Under the pieces are notes generated by a model. The model saw only the letters and a list, made by a program, of their open reading frames with translations, ran no database searches and had not been told where the DNA came from. A DNA stretch of 60,559 nucleotides from Bacillota bacterium (GTDB taxonomy: Bacteria; Bacillota_I; Bacilli_A; Erysipelotrichales; Coprobacillaceae): contig JAUNWT010000005.1 of assembly GCA_030540195.1 (NCBI GenBank), positions 1 to 60,559 of the forward strand, given 5' to 3'. A program made the position numbers and the translations under genes. Below, piece after piece: positions 16,948 to 24,005 of the stretch (within the stretch, counting starts at the first letter, position 1; each line of letters opens with the position of its first letter).

Positions 16948-18519
16948 TTATTTTTTAGACTTTGAATCGATAATCATAATGAATTTAGTACTTGCATCGA
17001 CACCGTCTTTTGAACCTGTAAGAGTCTTATATTCATTAGCAAGATCCATTAGTTTTTCTGTTGTTTTAACATCTTTTTTAACTGTATTATTTAAAACATC
17101 AGAAATCTTATCTAAACCTTTACTTTTAAATAAAGTTAAACCTTCAACAAGGGCATCACTACCACTAGCAAGTTGTTGATTTGCATCTTTTAATTGACTA
17201 CTTGCACTTGCAAGAGATTCACTTCCACTTTCAACCGCAGTAATTCCTTCTGTTAATTGTTTTGAACCATCTAAAGCACTTTGTGAACCTTCTTTAAGTG
17301 CGGCAACACCTGCTGTATAACTTTGTAAACCTTGATAGAATTTATTATAAGCATTTAATTGATCTAAAGCACTTTGAATAGAAGCACTCGCTTGTGCTGG
17401 AAGTTTAGCCATAAGACCTTTTAATACTTCTTGATAGTTATCAGTTGTTAAAGCGATACTGATGTTATAAGCCGCAAGTTGACTATTAATTTGTGTTTGT
17501 GCAGTATTTAATAAAGTATCAAAGACTTGTTTAGCACCCGCTACTAATGTAGCACTTTGACTATCAAGTTCTGTTAAGCCACTTGCAATCCTTTCAATTC
17601 CTGCAGATAAGTTTTGTGAACCTGTAAGAGTTGCAGCGACACCTGTTTTTAAAGAACCAACACCTTGATCAAATTCACTATATTTAGAAGCATATTGTTT
17701 TAATCCTGATTGTAAAGCTTGTCCTCCTGAAATAATTTGATCGTAAGAACTGTTTAATGTATCAACGCTATCATAAATATCATTCATATCATCAAAGTTA
17801 ATATCTGTATCTGATAATAATGATGGTGTAGCAACGGACATTAAACTATTTAATTTAAATTTTGTTGTATCATATTTAATTGTAACTGAATTAAATTTTT
17901 CTAAATCATCATTATTATCATAGTTTTTTGATAAACCAGGTGCAGCAATTGCCATGACAATATTTGATGATCCATTACTAATAACTTTTCCATTTGTAAC
18001 TTCTACATTAGAAGCATTCTTTGTTGGAAGCATTGTTCCTGTTGTAACAACGAAAGGAACATAAAGTTCTTTTCCATCCACTGTTTTTGTTTCATTATTT
18101 GTATAATCAATTTTGATTTCTACTTTTCCTTTTTTACCAAGCATTTCTTTTAACTTCATTTTTTTACCATCTAATTTATATGTTACTTTCATTGCAATTG
18201 GTAATGATGCTTTCGTTTTTCCTTGGTAATAAATATCTTGACCATCACTTGTTTGCCAAGTAATGGTTTCTCCGTTTTGTTCAAATGTTTCTTTTCCATT
18301 CATGTTTTTAACATTTGTAAGTGTTGTTTGATCTTCAAGGGTTGTTTCTTTTTGATCATTTATAAGATGTTGAGAAACAATTGTTGTTTTTTCTGTACCA
18401 TTTGTTTTTAATTTTGTATAAACTGTTTCTTCTTTTGAATAAGCAAAGGCAGGAACAACTGAACCCATAACTAAAGCCGATGCAACTGTTAAAGATGTGA
18501 TTAATTTTGTTTTTTTCAT
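16948..18519 (-). CDS. Secreted/surface XXXLxxG heptad-repeat protein, partner of MMPL exporter
   Basis: 523-aa exported protein. A signal peptide spans residues 1-27 (KLITSLTVASALVMGSVVPAFA). A beta-rich region follows to about 240. From about 255 to 490 it has repeated SGxxxLxxGxxxL heptads, predicted coiled coil, as in YhgE/Pip-associated proteins (SGGQALQSGLKQY, GSQNLSAGIERIASGL, GSDALVEGL). There is no clear C-terminal anchor. One base separates it from the MMPL gene, so they form an operon. Such proteins are thought to be periplasm-side or wall adaptors for the RND exporter; that role is inferred from pairing. Confidence 0.82.
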   Translation of the reverse strand: MKKTKLITSLTVASALVMGSVVPAFAYSKEETVYTKLKTNGTEKTTIVSQHLINDQKETTLEDQTTLTNVKNMNGKETFEQNGETITWQTSDGQDIYYQGKTKASLPIAMKVTYKLDGKKMKLKEMLGKKGKVEIKIDYTNNETKTVDGKELYVPFVVTTGTMLPTKNASNVEVTNGKVISNGSSNIVMAIAAPGLSKNYDNNDDLEKFNSVTIKYDTTKFKLNSLMSVATPSLLSDTDINFDDMNDIYDSVDTLNSSYDQIISGGQALQSGLKQYASKYSEFDQGVGSLKTGVAATLTGSQNLSAGIERIASGLTELDSQSATLVAGAKQVFDTLLNTAQTQINSQLAAYNISIALTTDNYQEVLKGLMAKLPAQASASIQSALDQLNAYNKFYQGLQSYTAGVAALKEGSQSALDGSKQLTEGITAVESGSESLASASSQLKDANQQLASGSDALVEGLTLFKSKGLDKISDVLNNTVKKDVKTTEKLMDLANEYKTLTGSKDGVDASTKFIMIIDSKSKK

Positions 18520-18520
18520 A

Positions 18521-20608
18521 TTAGCATTCCCCTTTTACATTAAGCTTTTTTAAACCAATTGTTGTACGAATGATGACTTTATCAAAGACAAGTAAAATCG
18601 CTGGTATTACACAAATAACAATGATCATTGAAATAAGTGCTCCTCGTGACATTAAATTACATAATGAACCAATCATATTTAATTTAGAAATCATACCTAC
18701 ACCAAACGTAGCTGCAAAAAATGACATTCCTGAAACAAAGATTGAGCCCGCTGAAGTAGAAATTGCATGGTCCATAGCTGGTATTTTTTCTAAACCACTT
18801 GAGCGATTTTCTAAATATTTTGTTGTAAGTAAGATGGCATAATCAATTGTTGCACCTAATTGAATTGTTCCAATAACAATAGAAGCAACAAATGGTAAGA
18901 CATCTCCTGTATAATAGCTGATTGCCATATTAATAAAGATTGCAAGTTCAATACCAGATACAAGGAGTATTGGTAATGAAATTGATTTTAAGACAAACAA
19001 CATAATAATGAAGATAACCCCAATTGAGGCAATACTTACATTTTTAAAGTCTTCATCTGCAATATTAACCAAATCCTTCATGCAAGGACCTTCCCCTGCC
19101 ATTATAGCATTTTTATCATATTTTTTGATGACTTTTTCAATTTGATCAATGACTTTATTTAATTCATCTGTCGCAATTTCATTTGTTGAATTGACAAAAA
19201 TCATTTTATAACGATTACTTTCAAAAATATCTTTAACATCACTAGGAATCATTTCATCAGGAATCCCTAGATTAGAAAGTTGAGAAGGTGATAAAACAAG
19301 ATTGACTGAATCAATCTTTTCAATTTCATCAACCATATCATTAAGATCATTATCTTTGATATCTTTATTAACTAAAATAACTTGTGAAGCCACTAAATCA
19401 AAATCTTCACTTAATTTACTATTAGCCACACAACTCTTTAAATCTTGTGGTAGATCCTTTGTTAGATTGTAATAACTTTTTACATGATTATTTCCATAGA
19501 AAGCTGGATAAGCAATCACCAATGCAACTACTAAAATAATTTTATAATGTTTAACAACAAAATTCTTGATTACATTGAATGATGGAATCAATGGTTTATG
19601 TTTTGTTTTGAAAACAACTTTATCAAATACTAATAAAAATGCTGGGAAAATTGTAACAGTTGAAAGTACTCCAATGAATACACCTTTTGCCATAACAACT
19701 CCAATATCAAAACCTAAAGTAAGTTGCATTGTACATAGTGCTAAAAATCCAGCAATTGTTGTTAGTGAACTTCCTGCAATAGAAACAAGGGTATCTCCAA
19801 TAGCAAGGGTCATCGCTTCATTGTTTGTTTTTACTTTTTCTTTTGCTTGTTCATATTTGTGATACAAGAAAATTGAGAAGTCTGTTGTGACCCCAAGTTG
19901 TAAAACAGCAGCAATGGCTTTTGTAATATAAGAAATTTCACCGATAAAAATATTTGTTCCCATATTATAAAGAATCGCAAGTCCAATGTTTCCTAGCAAT
20001 AAAAATGGAACGACATAAGAATCTAAGGAAACCATCAAAACAAGTAGAACCAAAGCAACTGCTACTAAAACATACGTGATGATTTCACTATCGGCTACGA
20101 TACTTGTATCTAAAGTAGAAGCAGACATTCCACCAATTTTAACTACTTCTTCACTGGTAAGCGTACGCATTTCTTCAATCGCATCGATTGCAACTGTACT
20201 ATCTTTAAAAGTAACCAGCATTAATTCACTATTTCCTTTTTTATATTGCTTTGTTACTTCACTTGGTAACATTTCTTGAGGAATTGTTGTTCCAATAAGA
20301 TCATTAGCGGAAATAACTTTAACAACTCCATCAATTTCTTTATATTGATCTTCTAAATCTAAAACATCTTTTGAATCCATGTTTTCAACAATACACATCG
20401 CAAAAGACCCCATATCAAAATCCTCTGCGAGAATATCCTGTCCTTTCATGGTTTCAATATCTTCTGGTAAATAAACCAAAATATCATAATTGATCTTTGT
20501 ATTAAGATATCCAAATATCGATGGAATACAAAGAAGTAATGATGCAATAACAATAAAAAGTTTATGCTTTACGACAAATCTTCCTATTGCTTCTCCAAGC
20601 TTTTTCAT
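18521..20608 (-). CDS. MMPL/RND-superfamily exporter
   Basis: 695-aa membrane transporter with two repeats of one membrane helix, an external loop and five to six helices (external loops about 40-165 and 375-520). The Gram-positive MMPL/YdgH-like fold is clear: LQLGVTTDFSIFLYHKYEQ (about 236-254) in the first half and IQLGATIDYAILLTTKY in the second carry the membrane Asp residues of the proton relay. It may export lipids or amphipathic drugs; the substrate is unknown. The ATG at 20608 is preferred over an upstream in-frame codon, because AGGAGG lies 7 bases before it. TetR-type palindromes overlap the promoter. Confidence 0.9.
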   Translation of the reverse strand: MKKLGEAIGRFVVKHKLFIVIASLLLCIPSIFGYLNTKINYDILVYLPEDIETMKGQDILAEDFDMGSFAMCIVENMDSKDVLDLEDQYKEIDGVVKVISANDLIGTTIPQEMLPSEVTKQYKKGNSELMLVTFKDSTVAIDAIEEMRTLTSEEVVKIGGMSASTLDTSIVADSEIITYVLVAVALVLLVLMVSLDSYVVPFLLLGNIGLAILYNMGTNIFIGEISYITKAIAAVLQLGVTTDFSIFLYHKYEQAKEKVKTNNEAMTLAIGDTLVSIAGSSLTTIAGFLALCTMQLTLGFDIGVVMAKGVFIGVLSTVTIFPAFLLVFDKVVFKTKHKPLIPSFNVIKNFVVKHYKIILVVALVIAYPAFYGNNHVKSYYNLTKDLPQDLKSCVANSKLSEDFDLVASQVILVNKDIKDNDLNDMVDEIEKIDSVNLVLSPSQLSNLGIPDEMIPSDVKDIFESNRYKMIFVNSTNEIATDELNKVIDQIEKVIKKYDKNAIMAGEGPCMKDLVNIADEDFKNVSIASIGVIFIIMLFVLKSISLPILLVSGIELAIFINMAISYYTGDVLPFVASIVIGTIQLGATIDYAILLTTKYLENRSSGLEKIPAMDHAISTSAGSIFVSGMSFFAATFGVGMISKLNMIGSLCNLMSRGALISMIIVICVIPAILLVFDKVIIRTTIGLKKLNVKGEC

Positions 20609-20625
20609 AGTCTCTCCTCCTAAAA

Positions 20626-20638
20626 TGACCACCGGTCA
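20626..20638. promoter_or_regulatory. TetR operator-like palindrome 1
   Basis: TGACC-ACC-GGTCA, centred at 20632, lies between the MMPL -10 box and its ribosome site. Confidence 0.75.
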
Positions 20639-20721: not shown

Positions 20722-20750
20722 TTGACTTTTTATTTTGAAAAACCTAAAAT
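20722..20750 (+). promoter_or_regulatory. tetR promoter
   Basis: TTGACT (20722-20727), a 17-base spacer, TAAAAT (20745-20750). The predicted start of transcription, near 20757, falls just before the AAAGGATG ribosome site. This rules out translation from the upstream GTG. Confidence 0.7.
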
Positions 20751-20772
20751 TAATGCTAAAGGATGTGTTAAA

Positions 20773-21393
20773 ATGGCAATTCAAGAAATAAAATCAAAAA
20801 TAAATGATAATAAATTAGAAAAAGAACGTAAGTTATTAAATACAGCCCTTCGTCTTTTTACAGAAAAAGGAATTAAAAAAACTTCGATTCAAGATATTGT
20901 TCATGATGCAGGAATTGCGAAAGGAACTTTTTATCTTTATTTCAAAGATAAATATGAATTACAAGATGTATTACTCGCAAAAACATCACATGAATTTTTC
21001 TCTAATGCTTGTAAAGAAGCAAGTAAACATCATTTTGATCGTTTAGATGATAAAATTGTTTTTATTATTGATTCGATTATTGATGCTTTAATTGCACGAC
21101 CTAACATTCTTAAGTTTATTCAAAAGAATCTTTCTTTAGGACTCTATAGTGAAAAATTAACAGATTTACTCGATAGTGAAGAATTAGGAATTAAGGAGTT
21201 ATTTATTAATGAGGTAAAAGAAAAGGATATTCCGTTAGAATATCCTGAAATGACTTTGTTTATGATTATTGAACTTGTTAGTTCTACGGTTTTTACTTCC
21301 ATTGTAGAAAAACAACCTCTTCCTATTGATGAATTTAAACCCCATCTTTATAAAACAATTCGTTTATTAATTAATGAAAAAGTGGAAAAGTAA
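20773..21393 (+). CDS. TetR/AcrR family repressor of the MMPL operon
   Basis: 206-aa TetR-family protein. The N-terminal helix-turn-helix (about residues 20-65) reads LLNTALRLFTEKGIKKTSIQDIVHDAGIAKGTFYLYFKDKYELQDVLL, a near-consensus TetR signature. The helical C-terminal ligand domain (70-205) resembles the YfiR/AcrR group. It is divergent from the MMPL/heptad-repeat operon, with three palindromes in the gap. It is therefore the likely repressor, released by an amphipathic ligand. The start is fixed by the promoter position and AAAGGATG. Confidence 0.9.
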   Translation: MAIQEIKSKINDNKLEKERKLLNTALRLFTEKGIKKTSIQDIVHDAGIAKGTFYLYFKDKYELQDVLLAKTSHEFFSNACKEASKHHFDRLDDKIVFIIDSIIDALIARPNILKFIQKNLSLGLYSEKLTDLLDSEELGIKELFINEVKEKDIPLEYPEMTLFMIIELVSSTVFTSIVEKQPLPIDEFKPHLYKTIRLLINEKVEK

Positions 21394-21407
21394 TTTTCCA
21401 TTTTTTA
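21383..21407. terminator. Terminator overlapping the tetR stop codon
   Basis: TGGAAAA-gtaa-TTTTCCA, then TTTTTT. The TAA of tetR (21391-21393) is in the loop; the minus-strand lactonase-like gene ends in the T-run. Confidence 0.8.
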
Positions 21408-22244
21408 TATAACAATTTCCTTTTGTCTTGTTTCTTCATGATTTGCAAGTGTGCAAATACATAACGGATCCAAACTCATTTGTCGAATCCATTCTAAGGA
21501 TTGTTTTTGTGCTTGACGATTAGAAGCAATACCTGAAACAATTCCTTCTTCCCATGATTTTCGAGCATAACCACCATCTGAATACAATAAAACATATTCT
21601 CCTTTTTTATTAGTAATTTTTACCGCAAATAAGCCATCACTATGTCCTGGAATATTAATAAGTTCTACACTCCCATCATCAAATAAATCATAAGACTTTT
21701 CTGCTGGTCCTTTACAATCATTCCATTCAAAAGTATCTAGATTAATATCTTTCCACCATTTCTTTTGATAACGTATAAATGGATGTTTTAAGGCAAACAT
21801 CATTTCATCTTTTGAAACAAGGATTTTCTTTGCATCCTTTACTTGTTTTAAACCATTTGCATGATCACAATCCAAATGCGTTAATAAAACATAATCTATT
21901 TCATTTGTTTTAATTCCTATTTCCTTTAGCTGTTCATCAATTGTATGTTCTACAACACCCTGATTAACCAAATATAGTAACGGTGAGCCTAATGACTTGA
22001 TCTGTGCTTTTTGATCATATATTCCTTTAGGCGACATTTCTCGATTCCAACCACAATCTACTAAAATCTTTCCTTTAGGATGTTCAATTAAATAAGATGA
22101 AACCGGTAACCATAGTCTGTTTGACTTCCTAGTAAAAATTCCTGAAGCTTTTAAAAGCGAACAATTTTCCCCACCAAAGGGCAAGTCCTTACTCACACAC
22201 ACTTTTCCTACTTCAAATATATGTATTTTAATTTTCTCATTCAT
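21405..22244 (-). CDS. Metallo-beta-lactamase-fold hydrolase (AHL-lactonase-like)
   Basis: 279-aa MBL-fold hydrolase. The metal motif HLDCDH is in YVLLTHLDCDHANGL (about residues 118-132), the form HxDxDH seen in AiiA/AttM-type lactonases. A second His is in NIPGHSDGLFAV (about 197), the Asp bridge in YSDGGYARKS and the last His in CTLANHEE. A role in lactone or thioester hydrolysis is inferred; quorum quenching is only one option. It is the last gene of a three-gene operon with the small heme-like membrane protein and the SDR enzyme. Confidence 0.85.
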   Translation of the reverse strand: MNEKIKIHIFEVGKVCVSKDLPFGGENCSLLKASGIFTRKSNRLWLPVSSYLIEHPKGKILVDCGWNREMSPKGIYDQKAQIKSLGSPLLYLVNQGVVEHTIDEQLKEIGIKTNEIDYVLLTHLDCDHANGLKQVKDAKKILVSKDEMMFALKHPFIRYQKKWWKDINLDTFEWNDCKGPAEKSYDLFDDGSVELINIPGHSDGLFAVKITNKKGEYVLLYSDGGYARKSWEEGIVSGIASNRQAQKQSLEWIRQMSLDPLCICTLANHEETRQKEIVI

Positions 22245-22254
22245 AAATAATCTC

Positions 22255-22569
22255 CTATATAATTACATGTAAAACTATAAAACAAATTAAAATAATTCCT
22301 AGTATTCCATGGATTTTTTTTCCTTTATTTTTCATAACAAAAATTCCCAATAACATTTCACTTAATAATGCTACCAATATTAAAATACCACTTATTTTTT
22401 TCAGAGTATTTGCTGTTAAAAAATAATGCATTCCATGTATAATACCATAACTAGCCAATAAACAGCTTAATCCTATATGTCCATATAAAAAATATTTTTT
22501 TATTTTTTCATCTTTTATCAATTTCATCATAAGTAAAATAATTATAAATAATATACCAATCTTAACCAT
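22255..22569 (-). CDS. Small four-helix membrane protein with two His-X13-His motifs
   Basis: 104-aa integral membrane protein with four predicted helices (about 3-18, 27-50, 59-79, 86-104). His31 and His45 lie in helix 2, and His87 and His101 in helix 4, each pair separated by exactly 13 residues. This is the bis-His spacing of diheme b-type cytochromes and ferric-reductase helices. An extra His48 is next to His45. I do not recognise a named family. A mini cytochrome b is inferred; heme binding is not shown. Gaps are 1 base to the SDR gene upstream and 10 bases to the hydrolase downstream. Confidence 0.7.
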   Translation of the reverse strand: MVKIGILFIIILLMMKLIKDEKIKKYFLYGHIGLSCLLASYGIIHGMHYFLTANTLKKISGILILVALLSEMLLGIFVMKNKGKKIHGILGIILICFIVLHVII

Positions 22570-22570
22570 T

Positions 22571-23341
22571 TTATTCTCCTTTATTAATTAAATATGCTAT
22601 TGGATTGACCCATTTTCTTGGTAAAAATCGTGTCAAAATATTATAGCTATAAGTAACGATTCCATGATATTTTATACTTTTTCCTTTCATTGTCGCTTTA
22701 TATCCTGCTTTGGCAACATTCTTAGCTGTTTGTGGAAACAAATGAAACATCTTTGATTGCTTCATATTGGCATTCTTTTCAAATCCCGTTATTGTTGGAC
22801 CGGGACACATGACTGTTACAGTTACACCTGTATCTTTCAACTCTTTGTTCAGTGCTTGTGAAAAAGATAAAACAAATGCTTTGCTTGCATAATATAATGA
22901 CATATAAGGTCCTGAAGAAAACGCCGCAACAGATGCTATATTCAAAATCCTACCCTGTCCTCTTTTCTTCATTTGTTTTGCAAGATAATATGTTAATTCG
23001 ACAAGGGTTATCATATTTAATTGCATCAATTCTTTTTGATTTTTTAAAGATGTTTCTATAAAACTTCCTTGTATACCAAATCCGGCATTATTGACAAGAA
23101 CTGAAACTTCTAAATCTTGTTCAAGTAAATAATTATTCACTTCTTTTGCTGACGTTATTTTTGATAAATCCTTTTGATAGACAATAACTTTTCGAGAATA
23201 TATTTCTTCTAATTCTTTTTTTAATTTATCTAACTTTTCTATATTTCTTGAAACTAATATTAAATCATGATCTCTAATAAACTCTTTTGCTAATTCTTGA
23301 CCTATTCCACTTGAAGCACCCGTAATTAAAGCATAACTCAT
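22571..23341 (-). CDS. Short-chain dehydrogenase/reductase
   Basis: 256-aa classical SDR with NADP-binding TGASSGIGQELA (about 7-18), NNAGFG (about 85-90), catalytic Ser in NIASVAAFSSG (about 138) and YYASKAF with the Tyr/Lys pair (about 152-156). The C-terminus is extended and hydrophobic (YNILTRFLPRKWVNPIAYL), as in the DltE/3-ketosphinganine-reductase-like subgroup, suggesting a lipid-like substrate. It is the first gene of the SDR/membrane protein/MBL operon and is preceded by a TetR-type palindrome. Confidence 0.88.
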   Translation of the reverse strand: MSYALITGASSGIGQELAKEFIRDHDLILVSRNIEKLDKLKKELEEIYSRKVIVYQKDLSKITSAKEVNNYLLEQDLEVSVLVNNAGFGIQGSFIETSLKNQKELMQLNMITLVELTYYLAKQMKKRGQGRILNIASVAAFSSGPYMSLYYASKAFVLSFSQALNKELKDTGVTVTVMCPGPTITGFEKNANMKQSKMFHLFPQTAKNVAKAGYKATMKGKSIKYHGIVTYSYNILTRFLPRKWVNPIAYLINKGE

Positions 23342-23416: not shown

Positions 23417-23441
23417 CAAAAAAAGTCATCAAAGATGACTA
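23417..23441 (-). terminator. Terminator of the LysR-TetR unit
   Basis: On the minus strand TAGTCATC-TTT-GATGACT, then TTTTTTT. The TetR stop codon lies at the edge of the stem. Confidence 0.85.
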
Positions 23442-24005
23442 ATTAAAGGTCGAAAGAACCTTAGAAATAATTTCACTTACTTCCTCATAATTTATACTTT
23501 GAGGATTTTCTAACAAATAAGAATACGCCGATATTGTTGCAGAAGCAATAACTTCAAGCATAAAATCATTTTTTGAAATGTAATCTTTTCTTTGAAAAAG
23601 GTGGTATTTAATAGCTTGTTTCCATTTTTTAATAAATCGATAATTTGGTTGTTCTATCAAAAACAGTTTAAATACTTTTTCATTTTCTTCAACAAATTGG
23701 ATTGTTTCTTTATAAAAAAGAAAATCTTCTTTTGATTGATATTCTCTTTTCATTATTTTTTCATTATTTTGAATCAATATATATAAAAGTTGATTTTCAA
23801 TTTCTATAAGTAAATCATCTATATTTTGATAATAAGCATAAAATGTACTTCGTGCAACAGCAGCCTTTTGACACAACTCTTTTACATTTATTTCATATAT
23901 TTTTTTGTTTCTAGAAAGTTCAAGCAACGCACTTTGTATAGCCACTTGAGAAGCCGTTAGGTGTTGTTTTTGAATACGAGTTATCTCTTTATAGGGATTT
24001 TTCAT
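23439..24005 (-). CDS. TetR/AcrR family regulator
   Basis: 188-aa TetR-like protein with the DNA-binding region at residues 18-65 (SALLELSRNKKIYEINVKELCQKAAVARSTFYAYYQNIDDLL), the FYAYY signature being typical. The C-terminal domain resembles the TetR_C group of DhaS-like regulators. It overlaps the 3' end of the LysR gene by 17 bases, so both are cotranscribed. Its probable target is the SDR operon directly downstream, through the palindrome at 23397-23415. Confidence 0.85.
   Translation of the reverse strand: MKNPYKEITRIQKQHLTASQVAIQSALLELSRNKKIYEINVKELCQKAAVARSTFYAYYQNIDDLLIEIENQLLYILIQNNEKIMKREYQSKEDFLFYKETIQFVEENEKVFKLFLIEQPNYRFIKKWKQAIKYHLFQRKDYISKNDFMLEVIASATISAYSYLLENPQSINYEEVSEIISKVLSTFN

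Follow-up and report, generated by a model that had tools for sequence, protein, structure and literature searches.

Introduction

The cytochrome b subunits of bc1 and b6f complexes bind two b hemes within a four-helix bundle, two of whose helices carry the HX13H pattern. The ferric reductase domain of the NOX, FRE, STEAP and YedZ/MsrQ proteins, which has six helices in its known forms, likewise places four His on two helices, with spacings of X13 and X12-13. In human NOX2 these are His101/115 (X13) and His209/222 (X12), with the inner heme expected on His101/His209 and the outer heme on His115/His222, and most short bacterial forms of the domain retain just two or three of the four His (PMC3591440). 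The DUF4405 proteins, to which the ferrosome protein FezC is related, are a class of six-helix, four-His cytochromes often encoded beside apbE; heme b was present in a purified DUF4405 protein, whose four central His were compared with those of PepSY and MsrQ cytochromes (PMC11334425). Two b hemes in four membrane helices are described for the superoxide oxidase CybB (PMC11869295) and for CytbX, a designed membrane bundle of 113 residues (PMC10120048).

Here we examine a bacterial gene for a membrane protein of 104 residues, which lies in a window of 60,559 nucleotides (contig JAUNWT010000005.1 of assembly GCA_030540195.1; the window is the whole stretch of DNA that was analysed). The original prediction, made from the DNA letters, had taken the protein for a possible miniature diheme cytochrome b, with a His pattern like that of ferric reductases.

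Results

The gene lies in a probable operon with SDR and metallo-hydrolase genes

The ORF was found on the minus strand at 22569-22255, as predicted. Its designation as a four-helix membrane protein and proposed diheme b-type cytochrome draws on the ORF and its translation, the ribosome-binding site, a DUF4405 match and a family alignment. A single base separates its start codon from the stop codon of the upstream gene for an SDR oxidoreductase (22571..23341, minus strand; PF00106, E 1.6e-46), and its ribosome-binding site, GGAG, sits within the end of that gene. On the other side, an AGGAG site lies 5' of the downstream gene for an MBL-fold, AHL-lactonase-like metallo-hydrolase (21405..22244, minus strand; PF00753, E 9.4e-13). 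Further upstream is the gene of a TetR-type regulator (23439..24005, minus strand; PF00440, E 1.9e-4, below the cut-off), with a terminator-like hairpin (23424-23440) between it and the SDR gene. With this layout, the SDR, membrane protein and MBL genes look like a three-gene operon adjoining a TetR regulator.

The same set of genes recurs elsewhere. Loci L065 and L066 keep a TetR-MBL-SDR module, and L067 and L073 keep part of it, all without the cytochrome. The metallo-hydrolase has 63-64% identical homologues in L065, L066 and L067, the SDR is 47% identical to a homologue encoded next to MBL and TetR in L065, and the regulator is 32-37% identical to TetR proteins beside the module in L003, L065 and L067. 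In L003 (genome G037), TetR, the cytochrome and an MBL gene are found together; here the MBL gene (L003:1839-2053) is a decayed pseudogene, and the adjoining cytochrome and TetR genes are intact. Since the module occurs without the cytochrome, and since L003 has the cytochrome and TetR with a decayed MBL gene, the putative cytochrome is, as judged from gene order, an optional member of the TetR-SDR-MBL module. The idea that its electrons come from the adjoining SDR or metallo-hydrolase found no support in this comparison with other genomes, and the SDR as a dedicated electron donor is unsupported, given that in L065 and L066 TetR, MBL and SDR occur together and the cytochrome is absent.

Four predicted helices carry two exact His-X13-His pairs

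We next consider the protein itself. AlphaFold2 returned a model of moderate confidence (mean pLDDT 73, pTM 0.54; four sequences) with helices at residues 2-16 (22522..22566), 21-50 (22420..22509), 55-79 (22333..22407) and 84-103 (22261..22320), all encoded on the minus strand. The His are at positions 31, 45, 48, 87 and 101. Helix 2 carries H31 (22477..22479), H45 (22435..22437) and H48, and helix 4 carries H87 (22309..22311) and H101 (22267..22269), so that H31-X13-H45 and H87-X13-H101 make up two His-X13-His pairs. Both the exact spacing and the assignment of the pairs to helices 2 and 4 of four had been predicted; H48, a fifth His, had gone uncounted. Foldseek searches of the PDB and of viral models with the AlphaFold2 model, and a VIA-align search, gave generic four-helix bundles only (TRPV and voltage-sensor domains), results that amount to neither support nor refutation when the model is a helical bundle predicted with moderate confidence.

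Loop 1 (KDEKIKK) and loop 3 (KNKGKK) are both lysine-rich, and the positive-inside rule would therefore place them in the cytoplasm and both termini outside. Helices 2 and 4 would point the same way.

A protein family conserves the four His most strongly

Close homologues were not found. Peptide-pattern scans of genome and viral contigs gave none, either for the 104-residue protein or for one relative, a search of the PDB with its single sequence gave no match, and a PHROGs search gave a match at chance level only. A single-sequence search of family and order genomes, before any profile was made, detected L003 at E 7e-4 and L016 at E 6e-3; in each, all four His are present at X13/X13. Profiles from the first homologues then led to a family of proteins of about 104-142 residues across the order and the class. 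Other candidates from the first family- and order-wide searches (L004, L012-L015, L017 and L018) were other membrane proteins or chance frames, and were rejected as unrelated.

Shuffling gave a first measure of how often the His pattern would arise by chance. Two disjoint HX13H pairs appeared in 0.44% of shuffles of the protein, and two disjoint pairs in 2.1% when any one spacing from X11 to X15 was allowed. By itself this frequency is weak evidence, because many ORFs had been scanned when the pattern was noticed. Conservation among homologues, on the other hand, rules out chance as the sole cause. In an alignment of 25 family members, His is present at positions 31, 45 and 101 in 25/25 and at position 87 in 24/25, and the four His are its most conserved positions. 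Its invariant columns are H31, H45, G61 (in helix 3) and H101, against a mean column identity of 31%. The X13/X13 spacing is exact in 25/25 members, although the segment that links the two pairs ranges in length from 40 to 50 residues. Members found by profile are biased toward the profile's conserved columns, a bias of which L003, L016 and the independent Pfam matches are free. Conservation of the four His had been named beforehand as one point on which the cytochrome proposal hung, and the alignment bears it out. The sole exception is L020 (L020:1498-1809), a relative of 104 residues with Asn in place of H87. This substitution would leave a single bis-His heme site, with the loss at the inner heme; loss of an inner-heme ligand has been reported for YedZ and STEAP proteins, in which another residue is lost (PMC3591440).

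The family is linked to DUF4405 and to the ferric reductase domain

The best Pfam match of the 104-residue protein was DUF4405 (PF14358; E 1.1e-4), which covers helices 3-4 and at 23.1 bits falls below the curated cut-off of 26.7 bits; on this profile comparison the protein is related to DUF4405 but formally no member. It shares with the DUF4405 proteins, FezC included, the conserved central His and, through its relatives, the association with FMN_bind and ApbE. DUF4405 proteins have six helices, however, and the sites of FezC are formed as a homodimer, whereas the model here has four helices in 104 residues. The same genome encodes a second DUF4405 protein (L005:1282-1890, contig C109) of 203 residues with two HX13H pairs, and 3' of its gene lies that of a flavodoxin-like protein with an N-terminal anchor.

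A second link is to the ferric reductase domain. Ferric_reduct (PF01794) matched 15 of the 25 family members at E<=0.01, and its cut-off of 28 bits was exceeded by L003 (31.8), L022 (33.8) and L023 (28.9). The profile comparison with cytochrome b and ferric reductase families proposed in the original prediction was thus positive for several relatives; the 104-residue protein itself scored 7.8 bits and stayed below the cut-off. The family profile aligned with 8qq7, a NOX-type FAD-binding FR-type protein of solved structure, at positions 9-114, which is nearly its full length, and with His on His at 4/4 sites (E 0.77). Its top match was FdnI, the cytochrome b556 of formate dehydrogenase (E 0.016), and further weak matches included cytochrome b-245 and cytochrome b6. 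The E-values are unimpressive taken singly, but the profile matches listed were mostly diheme b cytochromes, the exceptions being an oligopeptide symporter and a designed protein. The likeness to the ferric reductase domain consists in the four His on two helices, their X13 spacing and the proposed inner and outer pairing, which would be the same, and the difference in the four helices of the 104-residue protein, which is also without an FAD/NADPH domain.

The remaining known systems are more distant. Cytochrome b of bc1 and b6f has the HX13H pairs on two helices in common with the protein, but it is much larger, works within a quinol oxidase complex and has no significant sequence similarity to it. 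CybB, a prokaryotic b561, is alike as a natural four-helix membrane protein, but belongs by sequence to another family, and its superoxide and quinone sites are unrecognisable in the 104-residue protein. CytbX matches it in bundle type and about equals it in length, but is artificial and unrelated in sequence to natural proteins.

Several relatives are fused to, or encoded beside, electron carriers

In two relatives, L024:1444-2238 and L052:1084-1881, the four-helix cytochrome continues past helix 4 into a fused C-terminal FMN_bind domain. These domains carry DTVSGAT and DSVSGAT, respectively, a flavinylation-type motif. A third, L056:1081-2733, is a compact operon of FMN_bind, four-helix cytochrome and ApbE behind a regulator, and at L054:1087-1848 and L057:945-1806 a gene for a cytochrome b5-like lipoprotein adjoins that of the four-helix cytochrome. 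Because flavinylation by ApbE is extracytosolic (PMC8238504, PMC11334425), the position of FMN_bind after helix 4 in L024 and L052 agrees with a C-terminus that faces outward. Elsewhere in the family the neighbours are unrelated, for example a converging aldo-keto reductase gene in L043, L045 and L047.

At the locus studied here, FMN_bind and ApbE were not found encoded with the 104-residue protein. One match to each was present in the genome, about 2 kb apart on contig C1, where the ApbE locus adjoins Rnf genes, and these were the only ones. The usual partner of the protein is thus not obvious in its own genome.

A probable minimal transmembrane electron conduit

Taken together, the conserved His, the relatives that exceed the PF01794 cut-off, the alignment with 8qq7 and the flavin and cytochrome b5 partners support the original prediction of a miniature diheme cytochrome b of ferric-reductase-like pattern. 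We consider it likely that the protein is a ferric-reductase core trimmed to four helices, which would bind two hemes and serve as a b-type diheme electron conduit across the membrane; it is probably one of nature's smallest transmembrane electron wires. Two b hemes would be stacked across the membrane between helices 2 and 4, with H31 and H87 as ligands of the inner, cytoplasm-side heme and H45 and H101 as those of the outer one, a pairing as in NOX2. A quinol or a cytosolic flavoprotein would reduce the inner heme, and the outer heme would pass the electrons on to an acceptor outside the cytoplasm; in the relatives that acceptor would be an FMN_bind domain with covalently bound flavin or a lipoprotein of the cytochrome b5 type. 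From sequence and gene context we infer heme binding, the topology, which way the electrons move, and the organism's own donor and acceptor. Counting against this reading are the scores of the 104-residue protein below the curated thresholds of both Pfam families, a genome in which neither ferrochelatase nor an obvious partner turned up, and the moderate confidence of the model.

The protein could instead hold heme in the membrane for storage or redox buffering, with no wire to a defined acceptor, as does HsmA of Clostridioides difficile, which binds heme in the membrane, does not export it and gives protection against redox stress (PMC12670364, PMC11442138). Heme handling would matter here: ferrochelatase was undetectable in the genome, which is 97% complete, and heme would therefore have to be scavenged from outside. 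Moreover, no dedicated acceptor gene adjoins the 104-residue gene, and one family member gave a weak match (0.0038) to the HsmA family model TIGR03987; a search for HsmA loci yielded none anywhere and thus speaks for neither side. The 104-residue protein itself, however, had no match in NCBIfam, and its relatives are fused to or lie beside electron carriers, so we regard a purely heme-holding role as unlikely.

A stand-alone, quinone-linked oxidoreductase that moves electrons between superoxide on the outside and quinone, as CybB does, would need no partner gene, and quinone was among the electron sources originally named. CybB is also a bundle of comparable size, and its four helices hold two b hemes (PMC11869295). 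The match to its b561 family (Ni_hydr_CYTB, PF01292) was nevertheless insignificant (10.2 bits, E 0.66, below the cut-off of 30.1), and the periplasmic Arg/Lys cluster of CybB has no clear counterpart, as the outer loop has K57/K58 only and the C-terminus is uncharged, which makes such an enzyme quite improbable here. Least probable is a protein that is no cytochrome at all: four His in a bundle could bind zinc or copper or be structural, and heme in the four-helix subgroup is a prediction, but the exact X13/X13 is the spacing of heme-stacking helices in cytochrome b and ferric reductase proteins, several relatives pass the Ferric_reduct cut-off, and flavin or cytochrome b5 partners accompany some relatives.

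If the proposed conduit does bind two hemes, the heme core of ferric reductases can work with four helices and about 100 residues. The protein would then offer a natural minimal model of how electrons cross membranes, with a bearing on the origin of the six-helix ferric reductases and NADPH oxidases. It is also a likely redox module of fermentative gut Erysipelotrichales, here in a genome with no detectable ferrochelatase. Diheme cytochromes of the ferric reductase and DUF4405 types, the natural four-helix CybB and the designed CytbX are already known. What may differ is the free-standing four-His, four-helix form at 104 residues, as judged from a sample of the literature that leaves room for an earlier description. 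More tentatively, it is conceivable that a natural, free-standing four-helix diheme cytochrome of ~104 residues is the smallest autonomous transmembrane electron wire of the ferric reductase type, and that gut bacteria which scavenge heme employ it as an interchangeable module. Its acceptors would then vary, from flavinylated FMN_bind or cytochrome b5 to, in this genome, an operon of SDR and metallo-hydrolase under TetR control. Were this true, it would be a natural counterpart of the designed minimal cytochromes and possibly a living relic of the core behind the six-helix domain.

Features of the metallo-hydrolase and of neighboring genes

Lactonases usually carry the motif H-x-H-x-D-H. The MBL-fold hydrolase encoded at 21405-22244 has H-x-D-x-D-H (HLDCDH) instead, and its relatives read HLDFDH in L068 and L070, HMDIDH in L073 and HMDVDH in L074. 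The AttM model matched the hydrolase at E 4.2e-29, far below the model's cut-off. Beyond it lies another TetR gene (20722-21393, plus strand), which adjoins minus-strand genes for a large RND/MmpL-like membrane protein (18521-20632) and for a secreted long-repeat protein (16948-18519).
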